From Sulfurimonas sp. SAG-AH-194-I05 (GTDB lineage Bacteria; Campylobacterota; Campylobacteria; Campylobacterales; Sulfurimonadaceae), in contig NZ_JAEMVA010000016.1 of NCBI RefSeq assembly GCF_029215955.1, forward strand, positions 1 to 39,775: DNA of 39,775 nucleotides, read 5' to 3'. The translations under genes were made by a program, and so were the position numbers. Every line of letters begins with the position of its first letter. The stretch's first letter is position 1. The notes beneath the pieces were generated by a model. That model was not told the origin of the DNA. It did no database searches and was given only the letters and a program-made list of their open reading frames with translations. Of the stretch, positions 3,080 to 10,604 are shown one piece after another.

Positions 3080-4153
3080 TTAATTTATTTTTTTCTTTGC
3101 TAGTTCTTCAATAAGAACTGTTGCATACGAACCTTTTGGAAGGGTAAAGTTAAGTTCATACTGTGCTTCAATAGCATTAAACCTTCCCTCAACACCGACG
3201 GGATAAACCCATGCGTATCTTCTTGCTCCATCTGCGTTAATAGTATCGTCAAAATCTTTTTCAATTATACCAGCTGTAAGTGATGACATTTTTACTTTTT
3301 CACCGCAAAGCATTCCTGTTACAGAAATATTTCTTGTATTAAAGCGCTCTAAGTCTTCTTCACTTCCATCAAAATCAAAAAGTCTTCCATGTGGGTAATG
3401 TTCCATAATATCACCAAAAAGTACTTTAAATGGATGTTTTTGTTTTTTGAGTTTTTTGAGTTCTTCTAAGGGTATATTTAAAAGTGATTCTAATTCTTTT
3501 GCTTCAAAGTTAGCTAACAAAGTATTTATCTCTAAACGTCTACTAAGCCACATGTTAAAAAGGTGGGATTGGTACGCACTAATAAGAAACTTTCTAATCT
3601 TTGGATTACGTTCTCGTTTTGTACCCTTAGCAATTTGTTCCCCTTGAATGTGGTTGTCCCCATCGTTACCAAAACGTTGGTATCCAAAATAGTTTGGCAT
3701 ACCAAATTCAGAAATATTTTTTAAAGCCTCATCCATTTTAATAGCAGAGGTAGGGTTTACTTTCTTTAGTTTTATATAAAAACGATTTCCTTTAAGATGC
3801 CCTATTCTTATTTTATTGTTATGGTACGTTTTTGAAAGAATTTTTATACCCTCATGCGTAAATGTATCCATAGCTTCTTCATGCTGTTTATGAATAGAAA
3901 TATACTGTTTTGTCATTGCATATTTGTCTTTTAAACCTGCATAACCTATCTCTTTATTTTTAATTCCTAGGTACTTTGCTAAGATACTTACAAGTTCCAT
4001 AGTTGCAATATTTTTCTTACGAACAAACAAAATCAAATGCTCACCCTCTCCTGAAAAATCATAAAGAGGTAATTCCTCAACAACGAAATCACGTGCTGTT
4101 TGTTTAAAGTGAAAATTGATACTTGAATGCCCGAGTGAATAAAATCTATCCAT
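3080..4153 (-). CDS. truD: tRNA pseudouridine(13) synthase TruD
   Basis: 357 aa, the usual length. Isomerises uridine 13 of tRNA-Glu. The catalytic aspartate is D76 in GYAGLKDKYAMT (70-81), and the second signature NYFGYQRFG is present around residues 154-162, followed by the TruD-specific insertion domain. The start codon at 4153 is 3 bases beyond the thiL stop, so the two genes are tightly coupled. A cytoplasmic RNA-modifying enzyme with no unusual feature. Confidence 0.96.
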   Translation of the reverse strand: MDRFYSLGHSSINFHFKQTARDFVVEELPLYDFSGEGEHLILFVRKKNIATMELVSILAKYLGIKNKEIGYAGLKDKYAMTKQYISIHKQHEEAMDTFTHEGIKILSKTYHNNKIRIGHLKGNRFYIKLKKVNPTSAIKMDEALKNISEFGMPNYFGYQRFGNDGDNHIQGEQIAKGTKRERNPKIRKFLISAYQSHLFNMWLSRRLEINTLLANFEAKELESLLNIPLEELKKLKKQKHPFKVLFGDIMEHYPHGRLFDFDGSEEDLERFNTRNISVTGMLCGEKVKMSSLTAGIIEKDFDDTINADGARRYAWVYPVGVEGRFNAIEAQYELNFTLPKGSYATVLIEELAKKKIN

Positions 4154-4156
4154 AAC

Positions 4157-4981
4157 CTACCTTTTAAAATGATGCGACTTGCATCTGTTTGTGTATTTAA
4201 CACGCGTTGCTACTGCAAAAATATGAAGTGGTGTTCTTGTAACTTGCGCTAATCTTTTTATAGTTTTTTTATCTCTTTTATTAAATGAAATAAGCATTTC
4301 ATACTCTTCACCACTACAACCTATACTTTTAGGAATTTTATTTAAAAATGTATAGCCTATTCTACTTGCTTTACTAATTTTTTCTAAATCGCTAAAAAGA
4401 CCATCTGAAATATCCATTCCAGCGCTTAAATATCTTGAGACTTTATATAAGAACTTATCTCGTAACGTAATGTTTACAAATTTAGAATTCACATGAAGAG
4501 ATCCACCGTTTAAGAGTGTTTTTAAATTCTTCGCTGACGTCCCTAAAGAACCTGTATATGCAAACAAGTCACCATTTTTCGCACTGCTACGTAGTAAAGG
4601 TTTTTTTGTTTCAGAAATAATAGTAATCGTAATATCGAGTTTTGTATTACTTATAGTATCTCCACCAATTATAGCTATGTTAAAATCTTTTGCAACTTTT
4701 TTAAATCCACATGATAAAGCTTTCATTTGTCTTTTTGTAATTGCGGTAGGCATAGCTACACTTAAGAGTGCATATTTAGGCTTTGCATTCATCGCAATTG
4801 CATCGGAAATATTCACATGCATCGCTTTTTTCGCTACTTGATAATAGCTCATCCAAGAAGACTTAAAATGTACATCTTCAAAAAAAGCATCTTTGGAGTA
4901 CACGAAACCATCAATAAAAGCACCATCATTACCAATATGTTTATTATCAAACAATGATATAAAATAATTTTCTACGTTCAA
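4157..4981 (-). CDS. thiL: Thiamine-monophosphate kinase
   Basis: 274 aa, shorter than E. coli ThiL (325). Phosphorylates thiamine monophosphate to the diphosphate cofactor, which the 2-oxoacid oxidoreductase elsewhere in this window would use. Family motifs are visible: an N-terminal GNDGAFI in place of the common GDDAA, DAFFEDVHF, GGDTIS near residue 101, and GMDISDGLFSDLEK near 189. The start is TTG at 4981: no in-frame ATG exists early enough to keep the N-terminal motif, and AGAAGAGAA just upstream can serve as ribosome site. First gene of the leftward run thiL-truD-psd-unknown. Confidence 0.9.
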   Translation of the reverse strand: MNVENYFISLFDNKHIGNDGAFIDGFVYSKDAFFEDVHFKSSWMSYYQVAKKAMHVNISDAIAMNAKPKYALLSVAMPTAITKRQMKALSCGFKKVAKDFNIAIIGGDTISNTKLDITITIISETKKPLLRSSAKNGDLFAYTGSLGTSAKNLKTLLNGGSLHVNSKFVNITLRDKFLYKVSRYLSAGMDISDGLFSDLEKISKASRIGYTFLNKIPKSIGCSGEEYEMLISFNKRDKKTIKRLAQVTRTPLHIFAVATRVKYTNRCKSHHFKR

Positions 4982-5117: not shown

Positions 5118-5154
5118 CGGCATTATTTTAGTTCTAAAATTGAAGGATGAGTTA

Positions 5155-6867
5155 ATGAGTATTCCAATTTATACTTACGATGCAGTTATTGTTGGTGCTG
5201 GCCTTGCTGGTTGTGCGGCAGCAAGAGAGTTGCAAAGTGCAGGCAAAAAAGTTGCCGTTATTACAAAGTTACACCCCCTAAGAAGTCACTCCGGTGCTGC
5301 GCAGGGTGGTATTAATGCAGCCTTTAGTGATGCTGATAGTATCGAACTTCATGAGTTTGACACAGTAAAGGGAAGCGATTATTTAGCGGATCAAGATGCT
5401 GTTACTTTTATGTGTGAAAGAGCTCCTGAAACTATCCGATGGATAGAAGGTATGGGTGCAGCATTTAGTCGTACTCCTGATGGAAAAATTGCACAACGCC
5501 CTTTTGGAGGACAATCTTCTCCTCGTGCATGTTATGCTAAAGATAGAACAGGTTTAACCTTGCTTCAAACGATTTATGAACAAGCTGATCGCGTAGGTGT
5601 TAAGTTTTGGGACGAATGGTATGCAGCTGACATCATCTATAAAGATGGAAAAGTATCAGGTGTAGTTGCATTTAACATTAGAAATATGGAAACAGTTATA
5701 TTTAATGCAAAATCAGTAATGTTTGCAACTGGTGGCTATGCTAGAAGCTATAAAATAAATTCAAATGCACATGCAAATACTGGTGATGGTCTTTCTATCG
5801 TTGCACGTCATGGTCTTCCTTTAGAAGATATGGAATTTGTACAATTTCACCCATCAGGACTTTCAGGAAATGGTGTTTTAATTTCTGAAGCTGCTCGTGG
5901 TGAAGGTGGACAACTCAAGAACTCCGAGGGTGAGCGATTTATGACGAAATATGCTCCTAACGCTATGGAACTTGCGTCTCGTGATGTTGTAGCACGTGCA
6001 ATCCTTAACGAGATTCGTGAAGGTCGTGGAGTTGGTCCAAGAAAAGATGCAGTGTATTTAGATGTTACACATCTTGGACGTGAACTTATCATGAATAAAC
6101 TTCCTGAATTACGTGAACTAGCTATCACTTTTCTAGGTCTTGACATGATTAAAGAGCCTATTTTAATCTCAGCAACTGCGCATTATTCTATGGGTGGTAT
6201 TCCAGTCAATATTGCAGGACGTGCTCGAAAAAACAGCACTGAATTTATTGAAGGCTTTTATGCTGCTGGTGAATGTTCATGTGTATCTGTTCATGGAGCG
6301 AATCGTCTTGGTGCAAACTCAGTACTTGAAGCATTACTTTTTGGTAAATTTGTTGGTAAAACAATGGTAGAAGATGTCGATAAAATAGAATTACGTGTTG
6401 CAACACAAGAAGATGCACAAACTGCACTTAATGAAATTAATTTTGTTATGACAAACAATGGAAGTGAAAAAGTACCAGCATTACGAGAAGAATTACAACA
6501 ATGTATGACAGCAAATGCAGGAGCATTTAGAAGTAAGAAAACTCTTGACCTTGCTATTAAAACCATTAAACAACTTCGTAAAAAATATAAAAACATCAGA
6601 ATTCAAGATAAATCAAAAGTATTTAATACTGAACTTCAAGAAGCTTTAGAGTTTGGTCACATGCTTGATTACTCACTCTTTATCGTTGAGAGTGCTGTTG
6701 CACGTGAAGAAAGTCGTGGTGCTCACTTTAGAGAAGATTTTCAAACAAGAGATGATGATAAATTCCTTAAGCATACTATGGCTTATATGGATGAAAATGG
6801 TGATATTTCACTTGACTACATGGATGTCGTTCTTGGCAAACATGAACTTAAAGCTAGAACTTACTAG
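5155..6867 (+). CDS. sdhA: Succinate dehydrogenase/fumarate reductase flavoprotein subunit (SdhABE type)
   Basis: 570 aa. Carries FAD and the dicarboxylate site of a complex that interconverts succinate and fumarate. Visible: dinucleotide-binding GAGLAG at 14-19, the covalent-FAD histidine H45 in [10 protein letters not shown], the active-site HPSG motif near 226, and [10 protein letters not shown] near 380. A TTG in frame at 5140 would add five residues, but the ribosome site AAGGA at 5143-5147 fits the ATG at 5155. No twin-arginine leader is present, unlike the periplasmic methylmenaquinol:fumarate reductase MfrA of Campylobacter and Wolinella, so this complex should face the cytoplasm. The next two genes encode the iron-sulfur and CCG subunits. 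Direction (oxidation or fumarate reduction for a reductive TCA cycle) cannot be read from sequence. Confidence 0.93.
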
Positions 6868-6884: not shown

Positions 6885-7865
6885 ATGAGTACAAGTACAA
6901 TTACTACACAAAAAGTAACTTTCAAAGTATTTCGTTTTAATGCAGACGAAGATTATCTTCCATACTATGAAAACTATGAAATGGAAGTAACTTCAGAAGA
7001 AGTTGTTTTAGATATTTTAAATAGAATTAAATGGGACCACGATGGTAGTTTTTCTTATAGAAGATCATGTCGTCACGGTATTTGTGGAACATGTGCCATT
7101 AAAGTAAATGGTAAATCAACACTTGCATGTAAAGAAAGCATGAATGGTTTAGTTGCACTTTTTGGAAATGAGCTTACGCTTGAACCATTAAGTATCAAAA
7201 GAGCCATTAAAGATATGATTATCGATAAGGGTGATTTTTGGGAGAAACATGAAGCTGTAACGCCATACCTTGTTACAGATGTAAATGAAGCTCCTACGCA
7301 CGAGAACCTTGTTTCTCCAGCAGAAGCAAATACTTTAGATGAAGCTGACCTTTGTATTCAATGTGGAGCATGTCATTATGCATGTCCTGTTGTTGCAATA
7401 AACGAAGACTTCTTTGGTCCAGCAGCATTTGCAGCAGCATACCGTTTTGAAGCTGATGTTCGTGATGAAGATGGTACCGATCGAATTTCTGCTATGAATG
7501 AATCTGCGCAAGGTGTTTGGGACTGTGTTAAATGTTTTGAATGTCAAGAAGCTTGTCCTAAAGAGATTAATCCAATTGAAAAAATTGGTAAACTTCATAA
7601 TATGATTTTCCAAAAAGATGTAGCAGTATCAAATGTGGCTACGCGTCATGCAGTTGGTTTTCATCATTCTATTAAAAGATTTGGTGTACTTGATGAAGGT
7701 GGATTAGTGCTTTATTCCGAAATGGCTGGAATTGTTAAACATATACCTGTTGCAGCAAGAATGTTTGTAAAAGGTAAAATTGTTCCACCGTGGGGAATCA
7801 CAAAATCCGATAATATGGATGAAATCAAAAAACTTGTAGCATCATCTACTACAGCTAAGTTTTAG
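6885..7865 (+). CDS. sdhB: Succinate dehydrogenase/fumarate reductase iron-sulfur subunit
   Basis: 326 aa, longer than the roughly 240 aa of classical SdhB because of a C-terminal extension after about residue 240, as in other SdhABE-type complexes. The N-terminal ferredoxin fold holds the [2Fe-2S] ligands C62, C67, C70 and C82. The C-terminal helical domain has C157/C160/C163/C167P and C214/C217/C220/C224P for the other two clusters. Because the third group has a full CxxCxxCxxxC pattern, two [4Fe-4S] clusters or a 4Fe/3Fe pair are possible. A strong ribosome site, AAAGGGAG, precedes the ATG, 17 bases after sdhA. It passes electrons between the flavin and the SdhE subunit. Confidence 0.94.
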   Translation: MSTSTITTQKVTFKVFRFNADEDYLPYYENYEMEVTSEEVVLDILNRIKWDHDGSFSYRRSCRHGICGTCAIKVNGKSTLACKESMNGLVALFGNELTLEPLSIKRAIKDMIIDKGDFWEKHEAVTPYLVTDVNEAPTHENLVSPAEANTLDEADLCIQCGACHYACPVVAINEDFFGPAAFAAAYRFEADVRDEDGTDRISAMNESAQGVWDCVKCFECQEACPKEINPIEKIGKLHNMIFQKDVAVSNVATRHAVGFHHSIKRFGVLDEGGLVLYSEMAGIVKHIPVAARMFVKGKIVPPWGITKSDNMDEIKKLVASSTTAKF

Positions 7866-7874
7866 GAGTAAGAA

Positions 7875-8756
7875 ATGGGAAAATTAAGATATGCACTTTT
7901 TACTGGTTGTACTGCAAAACAAAGTACACCTGAGCAATACATGTCAACATATGCAGTCGCAGAAAAATTAGGAATCGAACTTGTAGAACTAACAGAAGCA
8001 TCATGTTGTGGGGCTTCTCATTTACAAGATTATGACGACTTTTTATCTTTAGTTTTAAATGCTAGAAATATTGCTTATGCTGAGAAACATGAATTAACAA
8101 TGGTTACTATTTGTAATACATGTCAGCTTAATACGGCAATGACGAAGCACCGTTTAGATAACAATGCTGACCTTAAAAAAAGAGTAAATGAAAAATTAGA
8201 AGAAGTTGGTTTAGAGTACAAAGGTACTTCACTAATCACACATTTTTTATATGCTATTATCGATGATATCGGTCTTGACAAAGTAAAAGAGATGGTGGTT
8301 ACACCACTGAGTCAGTTTAATATTGCACCCTTTTATGGTTGTCATAACATTAGACCTAGTGAGCTTCAAAATGAAACGCACAAAACTCCTGAAAATCCAT
8401 ATAACCCTACTTCATTAGATGATTTAATCATTGCATGTGGTGGTGCTACTGTTGATTATGAAGAAAAAAATAAATGTTGTGGTTTCCATGTGGAACTTCA
8501 AGCACCAAAAACTGCAGCAATTTTAACAGGGAATGCAATCGCTGGAGCTATGGATGGTAATGCAGACTGGATGGTAACTCCATGTCCATTATGTCACCTT
8601 AAACTTGATACGCAAACAGGTCATGCTTCACATGCCATAGGACGTGAAGTAAAACTTCCTGTTCTTCACATGCAACAAATGCTAGGTCTAGCACTTGGTT
8701 GTGATGCTGCTGAACTTGGAATGAAACATCACCTCACAAAAGTAGATTTCGTATAA
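7875..8756 (+). CDS. sdhE: SdhE/HdrB-like subunit with two CCG domains
   Basis: 293 aa. In place of haem-bearing SdhC/D anchors, E-type complexes use this heterodisulfide reductase B-like subunit to reach the quinone pool at the membrane. Two cysteine-rich CCG domains are clear: C12, C44-C45-G, C80, C83 in the first, and C156, C201-C202-G, C237, C240 in the second. No transmembrane helix is seen; membrane contact would be through amphipathic segments. The ribosome site AGGAG sits six bases before ATG and the gap to sdhB is 9 bases. The name sdhE here refers to the E-type subunit, not the unrelated flavinylation factor of the same name. Confidence 0.9.
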   Translation: MGKLRYALFTGCTAKQSTPEQYMSTYAVAEKLGIELVELTEASCCGASHLQDYDDFLSLVLNARNIAYAEKHELTMVTICNTCQLNTAMTKHRLDNNADLKKRVNEKLEEVGLEYKGTSLITHFLYAIIDDIGLDKVKEMVVTPLSQFNIAPFYGCHNIRPSELQNETHKTPENPYNPTSLDDLIIACGGATVDYEEKNKCCGFHVELQAPKTAAILTGNAIAGAMDGNADWMVTPCPLCHLKLDTQTGHASHAIGREVKLPVLHMQQMLGLALGCDAAELGMKHHLTKVDFV

Positions 8757-8767
8757 TACTTAACTTT

Positions 8768-8791
8768 ATCATAGAGAACTTTCTCTATGAT
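8768..8791 (+). terminator. Hairpin after sdhE
   Basis: Perfect 10-base arms (8768-8777 and 8782-8791) around a 4-base loop, 11 bases after the sdhE stop. There is no T tract behind it, so it may be a partial terminator or processing site that lowers expression of the downstream chimera relative to sdhABE. Confidence 0.5.
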
Positions 8792-8811
8792 GCGTGTAAG
8801 CTATTTTCTTG

Positions 8812-8817
8812 TAAAAT
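8812..8817 (+). promoter_or_regulatory. Weak candidate -10 box for the SdhB/SdhE-like chimera
   Basis: TAAAAT in TTGTAAAATACA, 27 bases before the ATG at 8844 and downstream of the hairpin. It would allow separate transcription of the chimera and xth. The match is only fair. Confidence 0.3.
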
Positions 8818-8843
8818 ACAAAAAAAATATTTGGATTTTATAA

Positions 8844-9824
8844 ATGATAGAAGTACAACTTTTTAAATTTGATAGTAAAACTGACTATCTCCCCTACTAC
8901 AAAAAATACGAAATACAACATGACTCCGTTACTACAATAAATGATGTTTTAAAGACAATCTTTAGTATCGAAAAATTTGAATACCTTAGCGATGAAACTT
9001 TTTTTCTTCGTGTCAATACTCTTTTCACATCCTCCGATGCTACTGTTGAGAGTTTAATAAATGATAAACAAGAACTTATACTTGAACCCTTAAGTATAAA
9101 AAGAGCTATACATGACCTTATAATTGATACAAAAGATTATAAAGAAAAACTTTCTCTTCTTGATGCGTATATGTCTGAGGATGAAAAAGCTGTAATAATT
9201 GCAAATAAAACATATATGTTAGAATATTATGCTTCGAATACTTTGCACTTTAATAATGACTATATTGGTGAACATGTAATTTTACTAGCACTCGATATAG
9301 TGAAAAAAGACAACACTTTAAAAGATGAAATATTTAATCTTTTAAACTGTGAAGATGGTATTAGCAATAAATCATCATTAAAATATAGAATTGTGAATTA
9401 TCCTCCAAAAAAGCAAATAACAGAAAAAGTAATAGATTCAATAGAACAATATTTTGACAACTTTAATATTGCACTTTATTGTGCGCTCGCAGAGAGTACA
9501 TTTGAAAGTATTATTACGCAAAGCAGAGCTACATATGTTTCTCTTCAATCAAAACATTTTGATATTCCGACAAATGCTACAGAACTTTCTTACCTTATGG
9601 CTGGAACAGTTTTACTTGAAGCAAAAGATAATAACGCTGACTTTTTAGTCGTAAGCACGAATGAAGACTTAGCCTTATTTGATGCAAAGCAAAAAAGTAT
9701 TGGAAAAATAATGGGACGTGAGATAGACGTACCTGTTCTTACTCAAAATGAATTTTTACAAATACTCCAAGGTGCAAAAAAATTAAATAAACACAAGGTC
9801 AAAGTACCTTTTTTAGGAAAATAA
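8844..9824 (+). CDS. Cofactor-poor SdhB/SdhE chimera-like protein, 326 aa
   Basis: The N-terminal 100 or so residues match the ferredoxin domain of the SdhB encoded upstream: both have DYLPYY followed by KYE or NYE, and LEPLSIKRAI near residue 80 (near 98 in SdhB) followed by D-IID. All four [2Fe-2S] cysteines are replaced. Residues about 130-175 still resemble the helical cluster domain around SdhB 173-208, without its cysteines. Residues about 200-310 resemble the second CCG domain of SdhE: FNIALYC against FNIAPFYGC, NADFLVV against NADWMVT, and IGKIMGREIDVPVL against SHAIGREVKLPVL. Only two cysteines remain (C169, C213). The frame is intact and the product has a start, normal codons and a coupled downstream gene, so it is not obviously a pseudogene. 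Function unknown; an assembly, scaffolding or regulatory partner of SdhABE is an inference. Confidence 0.85.
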   Translation: MIEVQLFKFDSKTDYLPYYKKYEIQHDSVTTINDVLKTIFSIEKFEYLSDETFFLRVNTLFTSSDATVESLINDKQELILEPLSIKRAIHDLIIDTKDYKEKLSLLDAYMSEDEKAVIIANKTYMLEYYASNTLHFNNDYIGEHVILLALDIVKKDNTLKDEIFNLLNCEDGISNKSSLKYRIVNYPPKKQITEKVIDSIEQYFDNFNIALYCALAESTFESIITQSRATYVSLQSKHFDIPTNATELSYLMAGTVLLEAKDNNADFLVVSTNEDLALFDAKQKSIGKIMGREIDVPVLTQNEFLQILQGAKKLNKHKVKVPFLGK

Positions 9825-9827
9825 CAT

Positions 9828-10604
9828 ATGTCAGACTCTATAGAAATAATCTCATGGAATGTAAACGGAATTCGTGCTGTTGGCAACAAAGAGGCACTAA
9901 AATGGATAGATGAACGTCAAACAGATATTTTATGTCTTCAAGAGATAAAGGCGCAAGAAGAACAAATACCAGAGGGATTGTTTGAAAAAGAATATACAGA
10001 TATTATCGTAAATTCTGCTACAAAAAAAGGCTATAGCGGTACAATGACGTGGAGCACACTTCAAAGTGATTATAATTCCACATGCCAGCATGTGGATACT
10101 ACGGCAGAAGGTCGTATTGTAGAAACACATTATGATGATATCGTCCTTTTTAATGTTTACTTTCCAAATGGTCAAAAAAATGAAGAAAGACTAGCCCATA
10201 AAATGAAATTTTATGATGACTTTTTAGCATACTGTGAAAAGTTACGTGAAGAGGGAAAGTCTATTGTTATTTGTGGAGATGTAAATACTGCACACAAAGA
10301 AATTGACCTTAAAAATCCAAAAGCAAATTCTAAAACATCAGGATTCCTTCCTATTGAGAGAGAATGGATGGATAAACTTATTGACCATGGCTATATAGAT
10401 ACTTTCCGCTATGTAAATGGTGATGAGGCAGATAGATACAGTTGGTGGTCCTACCGATCAGGTGCAAGACTAAAAAATGTAGGATGGAGAATAGACTACT
10501 TTTTTATAAGTGAAGACTTGTGCGAAAATTTAGAAGAGGCTTTTATTCTTGATCATATTACAGGGTCTGATCATTGTCCTGTTGGAATCAGGCTTTCGAT
10601 TTAG
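9828..10604 (+). CDS. xth: Exodeoxyribonuclease III / AP endonuclease
   Basis: 258 aa, matching the ExoIII family. Cuts DNA at abasic sites and trims 3' ends in base excision repair. Signature motifs: SWNVNGIRA at 9-17 with N11, LQEIK with metal ligand E39, GDVNTAHKEIDLKNPK in the middle (the GDxN catalytic loop), WRIDYFF, and GSDHCPV with the catalytic histidine near the C-terminus. It begins 3 bases after the chimera's stop with AGGAAAA as a distant ribosome site, so it is probably translationally coupled to it. A terminator hairpin follows directly. Confidence 0.95.
   Translation: MSDSIEIISWNVNGIRAVGNKEALKWIDERQTDILCLQEIKAQEEQIPEGLFEKEYTDIIVNSATKKGYSGTMTWSTLQSDYNSTCQHVDTTAEGRIVETHYDDIVLFNVYFPNGQKNEERLAHKMKFYDDFLAYCEKLREEGKSIVICGDVNTAHKEIDLKNPKANSKTSGFLPIEREWMDKLIDHGYIDTFRYVNGDEADRYSWWSYRSGARLKNVGWRIDYFFISEDLCENLEEAFILDHITGSDHCPVGIRLSI

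Follow-up and report, generated by a model that had tools for sequence, protein, structure and literature searches.

Why should the genes of an iron-sulfur enzyme be followed by a gene whose product resembles two of the enzyme's subunits but has none of their cluster ligands? The question is raised by a 39,775-nucleotide contig of Sulfurimonas sp. SAG-AH-194-I05 (NZ_JAEMVA010000016.1, assembly GCF_029215955.1; the whole of this stretch is hereafter the window), in which sdhABE, encoding an E-type succinate dehydrogenase, is followed on the same strand by a gene that we call X. We found that the product of X is almost certainly a paralogue of SdhB fused with a paralogue of the second half of SdhE and free of cofactors. 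Further analysis revealed a family that is widespread in the Campylobacterota, is under purifying selection, and occurs in many genomes that have no SdhE.

Identity of the X protein

The reading frame of X is intact (326 codons; coordinates, strand and frame were verified). It begins 87 bp past the sdhE stop codon and ends 3 bp ahead of an exonuclease III-type gene. A first-pass annotation, made from the letters of the window alone, had described the product as an SdhB-SdhE chimera, and every motif that it cited was recovered: DYLPYY and LEPLSIKRAI-DLIID (residues 80 to 95) on the SdhB side, and FNIALYC, NADFLVV and GREIDVPVL on the SdhE side. The annotation had also guessed that the protein might already be listed as a domain of unknown function, and such an entry does exist, namely PF18712 (DUF5644). 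PF18712.8 is a precomputed match for the X protein, while our scan with version.6 gave no match in the protein or its genome. Taken alone, searches with the single X sequence are only suggestive. HdrB-like_C (PF22196) gave 21.1 bits (E 3.3e-4), under its curated cut-off of 33.4, and 117.5 bits with the Helicobacter pylori-type X protein; Fer2_3 (E 0.0054) also fell under its curated cut-off, and dhsB/TfrB matches were weak.

The comparison at family level is what establishes the likeness. A database search with X returned 211 relatives at E <= 0.01; among the 120 relatives listed, the precomputed domains were PF18712, PF22196 and PF13085 (Fer2_3), in sets that vary, and a few relatives have none. 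When 73 aligned relatives were scanned at E <= 0.01, HdrB-like_C was found in 73/73, Fer2_3 in 59/73 and DUF5644 in 45/73. A profile of 105 relatives matched Campylobacterota SdhB with 99.6% probability (E 1.3e-23) and SdhE with 98.4% (E 6.1e-15). In many genomes, two neighboring genes, X1 (mostly 212 to 256 residues) and X2 (229 to 301 residues), take the place of X and follow the SdhB-SdhE order. X1 (9 sequences) matched SdhB at 99.9% (E 1.6e-32, 218 columns) and X2 (7 sequences) matched SdhE at 99.9% (E 1.3e-35, 279 columns, nearly the full length of SdhE), while the crossed controls, X1 against SdhE and X2 against SdhB, gave 0.2% each. Against the PDB, the X2 profile matched HdrB (8rvu_b) at E 4.3e-31. 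With crossed controls in place, the profile and fold comparisons led us to reject a chance likeness of short motifs. Structural similarity limited to such motifs, which the annotation had named as the outcome that would undo it, is not what we found, since the likeness extends further. One detail of the annotation needs revision. It spoke of pieces of SdhB and of the second SdhE CCG domain; the second CCG half is indeed present, but SdhB is represented by its whole two-domain fold rather than by pieces.

Also upheld is the claimed loss of the iron-sulfur cluster ligands. The window protein contains two cysteines, C169 and C213, neither of which stands at a ligand column in alignments read by eye. 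We counted cysteines over 239 family members without de-duplication, 120 of them taken from loci and 119 from the database search. Cysteine is absent (0/239) from 10 of the 12 SdhB cysteine columns and occurs at the other two, C70 (20/239) and C214 (44/239). Columns C67, C82, C217, C220 and C224 are gaps in 236 to 239 of the 239 members. At any single one of the ten CCG columns, cysteine occurs in at most 4 of 20 split X2 proteins and at most 15 of 213 fused C-terminal parts. None of the members counted has a full ligand set, whereas the reference sets (50 SdhB and 49 SdhE) have cysteine at every one of these columns.

X therefore combines conservation of fold with loss of chemistry. With SdhB and FrdB it shares the whole fold, the order of elements, DYLPYY and EPLS-RA-D, without the [2Fe-2S] and [4Fe-4S] ligands; that is, it has the two-domain SdhB fold and lacks the cysteine ligands of all three clusters. 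With class E SdhE and HdrB it shares the CCG domain fold in the second half (full length in the split relatives), without the ten-cysteine CCG motifs and, in the window protein, without the first half. As X fails the ligand test that defines SdhB and SdhE, we class it as a cofactor-free variant and a member of neither. Within this ligand-less family, database entries bear misleading automatic names, for example "2Fe-2S iron-sulfur cluster-binding protein" or "succinate dehydrogenase/fumarate reductase-like Fe-S protein."

A member of the family has been solved. PDB entry 3KWL, public since 2010, is an uncharacterized H. pylori protein (DUF5644) that, judged by length and annotation, is very likely HP0468. 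No other PDB chain was found by the SdhB-like profile as well as by the SdhE-like one, which makes it the sole solved chain found that joins both modules; searched against a 2026 copy of the PDB, the SdhE profile returned nothing but HdrB chains and 3KWL at E <= 1e-5. X is strongly akin to 3KWL, although Foldseek's own alignment of the pair gives a root mean square deviation of 15.4. The two differ in that 3KWL keeps both CCG halves (496 residues in the H. pylori-type genome G105), of which the window protein has lost the first. The family is thus already known by a Pfam number and a crystal structure, and its identity as an SdhB-SdhE derivative, of which we found no prior description in the literature searched, is what we add. 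That literature contains passing mentions or nothing on DUF5644, 3KWL, HP0468 and Cj1459/Cj1460 (which we take to be the Campylobacter tags), and no function. In one report, HP0468 is upregulated by molecular hydrogen and is a hit in a genome-wide association study of gastric cancer (PMC6090961).

Maintenance and distribution of the family

Sulfurospirillum (locus L155) carries the split form, and Campylobacter-type and Wolinella-type genomes appear to do so as well; X1 and X2 are separate open reading frames (ORFs) in 9/9 Campylobacter-type genomes checked. Supposed in-frame fusions of about 450 residues in eight Campylobacter-type genomes were rejected, as all eight, and G142, carry two ORFs. 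In three further regions, X is fused in G214 and G097 (357 and 353 residues), and G291 yielded an X1 ORF alone. A tree built on 55 labelled X1 rows (with L081, L132 and L085 omitted) implies that the family switched between the split and the fused state five times, and well-supported branches force three of these switches. Such repeated switching is a usual sign that both parts act as one unit, and we read it in this way.

In a second tree, 62 X1 rows lie on one side of a branch from 18 SdhB/FrdB rows (support 100/100) and roughly follow families, with the caution that some long branches meet. The possibility that X is a decaying duplicate draws on its divergence, which is faster than that of SdhB (identity 0.41 to 0.80 for X against 0.80 to 0.98 for SdhB in the same 25 pairs), and on its absence from many close relatives. 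However, the frame in the window is intact, ten residues are invariant across 73 diverse members, and the members form one well-supported group throughout the phylum. The ratio of nonsynonymous to synonymous substitution rates (dN/dS) is 0.09 to 0.40 for X and 0.02 to 0.17 for SdhB in 25 pairs, these being the pairs with the lowest proportion of synonymous differences among the first 60 by name of 280; the pairs are near saturation, several are repeats of one contig, and the window is in none. We therefore rejected pseudogene status for the family, a reading to which we give next to no chance, and agree with the annotation that the gene is not a decaying one; the purifying selection that it had named as a check is seen in relatives.

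The DUF5644 model detected the family in 155/298 Campylobacterota genomes and 0/14 controls. Together with 35 genomes that have near-full-length matches to our alignment A1, X is present in at least 190/298 genomes, a lower bound. For comparison, SdhE (E <= 1e-20, here and below) is found in 116/298 and FrdA (NF006383) in 235/298. Helicobacter (HP0468), Arcobacter, Sulfurospirillum and Sulfurovum relatives are among the known holders, and Campylobacter and Wolinella are probable ones. Among these 190 genomes, 54 have SdhE and 136 do not (the H. pylori-type G105 being one that has X and no SdhE), 176 have FrdA, and 2 (G194 and G220) have neither. In the DUF5644 set, the odds ratio over the 298 genomes is 11.5 for X with FrdA and 0.11 (avoidance) for X with SdhE; both values are confounded by phylogeny, and the second also by a DUF5644 model built on Helicobacter-like members. 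We did not take co-occurrence to prove that X and FrdA are partners, given that 294/298 genomes have FrdA or SdhE and that the pattern tracks clades. Within the genus of the window, X is present in 7/36 genomes and none was shown in 29/36, and 19 inspected genomes without X have sdhABE (in L201, the SdhE ORF is unlabelled). The annotation had suggested a role tied to the E-type complex SdhABE, or to the direction in which it runs. In that form the idea finds no support in the distribution, and we rejected a role confined to SdhABE.

Genomic setting

To what extent is X linked to sdhABE? The locus survey covered the best 80 of 119 confirmed loci, located with one pattern ending in DYLPY, and so favors members that bear this motif; 79 of the 80 (all except L150) gave an X ORF. 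X lies upstream of sdhABE on the same strand in 28/79 loci (27 directly adjacent, with gaps of 100 to 215 bp), downstream in 5/79 (gaps of 109 to 159 bp) and on the opposite strand in 9/79. The remaining 37/79 have no sdhABE in the fetched flank and include contig ends, so that linkage in 42/79 is a lower bound. The position just after sdhABE, which the annotation had reported, is therefore correct here but only one among several arrangements. The synteny that it proposed to check is real, but it can be explained by a common ancestral position beside thiL-truD (thiL being the name that we assume for truD's neighbor). In many families, this pair lies next to X, to sdhABE or to both, and it does so even where X or sdhABE is missing. 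In the simplest history, sdhBE would have been duplicated in tandem next to thiL, the copy would have lost its ligands, and X or sdhABE would then have been lost in separate events. Because linkage may be explained by shared ancestry, it is not in itself proof of joint function. Away from sdhABE, the neighbors of X yielded no functional clue; they are of housekeeping type and depend on the family (thiL-truD, a peptidase M3 gene and others).

In the window (Table 1), sdhA, sdhB and sdhE are intact, with intergenic gaps of 17 and 9 bp, and sdhB and sdhE retain their cluster cysteines. The interval between sdhE and X folds at -20.6 kcal/mol (z -5.0), and no terminator-like site was detected in it. 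The hairpin found there is possibly an attenuator or processing site, in which case X may have its own transcript. Together with gaps of 87 to 215 bp, it argues against tight cotranscription of X and sdhABE.

Table 1. Features of the window at and around X
Feature	Coordinates	Strand	Remarks
X, fused cofactor-free SdhB-SdhE paralogue, DUF5644 / HdrB-like_C protein	8844..9824	+	326 aa
SdhB-like part of X: beta-grasp (Fer2) and helical domain, without cluster loops	8844..9404	+	residues 1-187
DYLPYY of X, common to SdhB	8883..8900	+	residues 14-19; conserved columns D23 Y24 L25 P26 Y27 Y28
LEPLSIKRAIHDLIID of X, common to SdhB	9081..9128	+	residues 80-95; conserved columns common to X and SdhB: E100 P101 S103 R106 D110 I113 D114
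SdhE/HdrB-like part of X: second CCG half, no cysteine ligands	9423..9818	+	residues 194-325
sdhA, flavoprotein, SHSGAAQGG motif	5140..6867	+	TIGR01812 764.8 bits
sdhB, iron-sulfur subunit, cluster cysteines present	6885..7865	+	
sdhE, CCG/HdrB-like membrane-anchor subunit, E-type complex	7875..8756	+	NF042965 227 bits, TIGR03288 212 bits, each under its cut-off
Perfect 11-bp hairpin between sdhE and X, without T run	8767..8792	+	RNA fold of 8757-8843
truD and thiL; many genomes of the phylum have them next to sdhABE and/or X	3080..4981	-	Pfam TruD 211.7 bits, AIRS 71.2 bits
Exonuclease III-type gene (presumably xth), 3' of sdhE in several X-less Sulfurimonas-type genomes	9828..10604	+	Exo_endo_phos 90 bits

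Several other features of these loci were noted. The neighbors seen in the window are separated in genome G309, where one contig carries X next to the exonuclease III-type gene and another carries sdhABE (L207 and L203). Several Sulfurimonas-type loci have a GGDEF-domain gene (cluster c6; L063, 10381-11565, minus strand) either next to X or in the interval from thiL to sdhA, and the window has no gene at that place. A desulfoferrodoxin-type gene (cluster c9; L071, 8587-8979, minus strand; domain scan on L071 alone) lies near or next to X1-X2 or sdhABE in several loci, cluster c9 being also present in L072, L073, L092, L097 and L098; an ORF of this cluster, window_19, occurs in the window too. 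L109 (NVXU02000027.1), a contig of a metagenome-assembled genome labelled Fluviicola (Bacteroidota), carries a Sulfurimonas-type thiL/truD, X and sdhABE, and is most likely misbinned.

Possible functions of X

The partner of the SdhB fold is the flavoprotein, and since X keeps this fold without the ligands that carry electrons, a cofactor-free SdhB mimic is plausible as a local substitute for an assembly factor. We tentatively propose, by analogy, that X is a redox-dead stand-in that would dock on the SdhA/FrdA flavoprotein during assembly of complex II. Presumably working by binding, X would occupy the face of SdhA or FrdA normally taken by SdhB or FrdB, shield or shape the immature flavoprotein (for example, during covalent attachment of flavin adenine dinucleotide [FAD]), and then be displaced by the iron-sulfur subunit. 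The histidine of the SdhA motif SHSGAAQGG is the site of this attachment. In Escherichia coli, an assembly factor of another family, SdhE/YgfY (SdhAF2/Sdh5), occupies the FrdB site of FrdA (PMC5773532). X shares with it only the proposed site of action, the FrdB-facing surface of FrdA; the families differ, and PF03937, to which the E. coli factor belongs, is absent among the Pfam matches of X at E <= 10. Moreover, we found PF03937 in 0/101 Campylobacterota genomes, with 2/14 controls positive. A study of Wolinella succinogenes states that FrdA of this organism carries covalent FAD and that one exchange in the SdhA of its MFR gave covalent FAD binding (PMC2680327). As the known factor was not found in those 101 genomes and W. 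succinogenes FrdA carries covalent FAD, an SdhB mimic is a plausible substitute. A further step is the idea that a duplicated, ligand-stripped sdhB-sdhE arm gave the Campylobacterota a complex II assembly factor of their own, and that 3KWL is this factor; we consider it rather unlikely.

Several observations weigh against an assembly role. The [2Fe-2S] loop is part of the SdhA-facing region of SdhB, and X, which lacks it, would need other surfaces for docking. Among the 59 genomes with SdhE and without FrdA, at least 12 have X and at most 47 do not, so that X looks dispensable for E-type complexes. The co-occurrence of X with FrdA follows clades, and the linkage to sdhABE may be a relic of tandem duplication, given the common thiL-truD neighborhood and the gaps of 87 to 215 bp. 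Two drafts that are 99% complete, G194 and G220, contain X and no SdhA/FrdA or SdhB/FrdB above the family cut-off; the sole sizeable match, in G220, is a 484-residue frame at 290 bits, against a cut-off of 567. The lack of complex II in these two genomes (which have X, or X1 and X2) may be an assembly gap or a true loss. Finally, covalent FAD attachment is possible in vitro without an assembly factor, according to one report (PMC9557727).

Some of the same evidence would suit a cluster-less SdhB-SdhE pair that has been repurposed as a structural scaffold in another complex, unrelated to succinate or fumarate, an idea that we regard as possible if somewhat doubtful. It would account for the persistence of X in the 136 genomes without SdhE and in the two without detectable complex II, and for the Sulfurospirillum and Campylobacter-type loci in which X lies beside thiL with no sdhABE at the locus. 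There is also a precedent in yeast: according to a 2023 review, Tim18 is a haem-less SDHD paralogue in TIM22, which, like X, is a complex II paralogue kept without its cofactor and, unlike X, is a eukaryotic membrane subunit of a known other complex (PMC10238741). Yet no candidate partner emerges from the varied, housekeeping-type neighbors described above, and the recurrent adjacency of X and sdhABE would have to be mere history. This adjacency, in its upstream, downstream and opposite-strand forms, and a domain order that repeats the order of sdhB and sdhE, would instead be natural if X were, in line with the annotation's view, a permanent accessory subunit of SdhABE, a membrane dock for it or its competitor, tuning the flow or direction of electrons. 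Such a role is harder to reconcile with the many X genomes that have no SdhE, with the 29 genomes of the same genus in which X was not shown, and with the 19 X-less loci that have sdhABE, and we think it improbable.

The identification of X gives an identity to a family listed as having unknown function and corrects its automatic iron-sulfur names. Because 3KWL joins an SdhB-like and an SdhE-like module, its domain packing may be the first template for the contact between SdhE and SdhB; according to the 2023 review, no structure of a class E complex II had been published (PMC10238741). Were the tentative assembly role to prove true, X would take the place of the SdhAF2 that is missing, and would cleanly exemplify a redox complex that was copied and emptied and now chaperones its own partner. 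The dead copy of the electron wire would hold SdhA or FrdA until the live one comes, and 3KWL would be explained.
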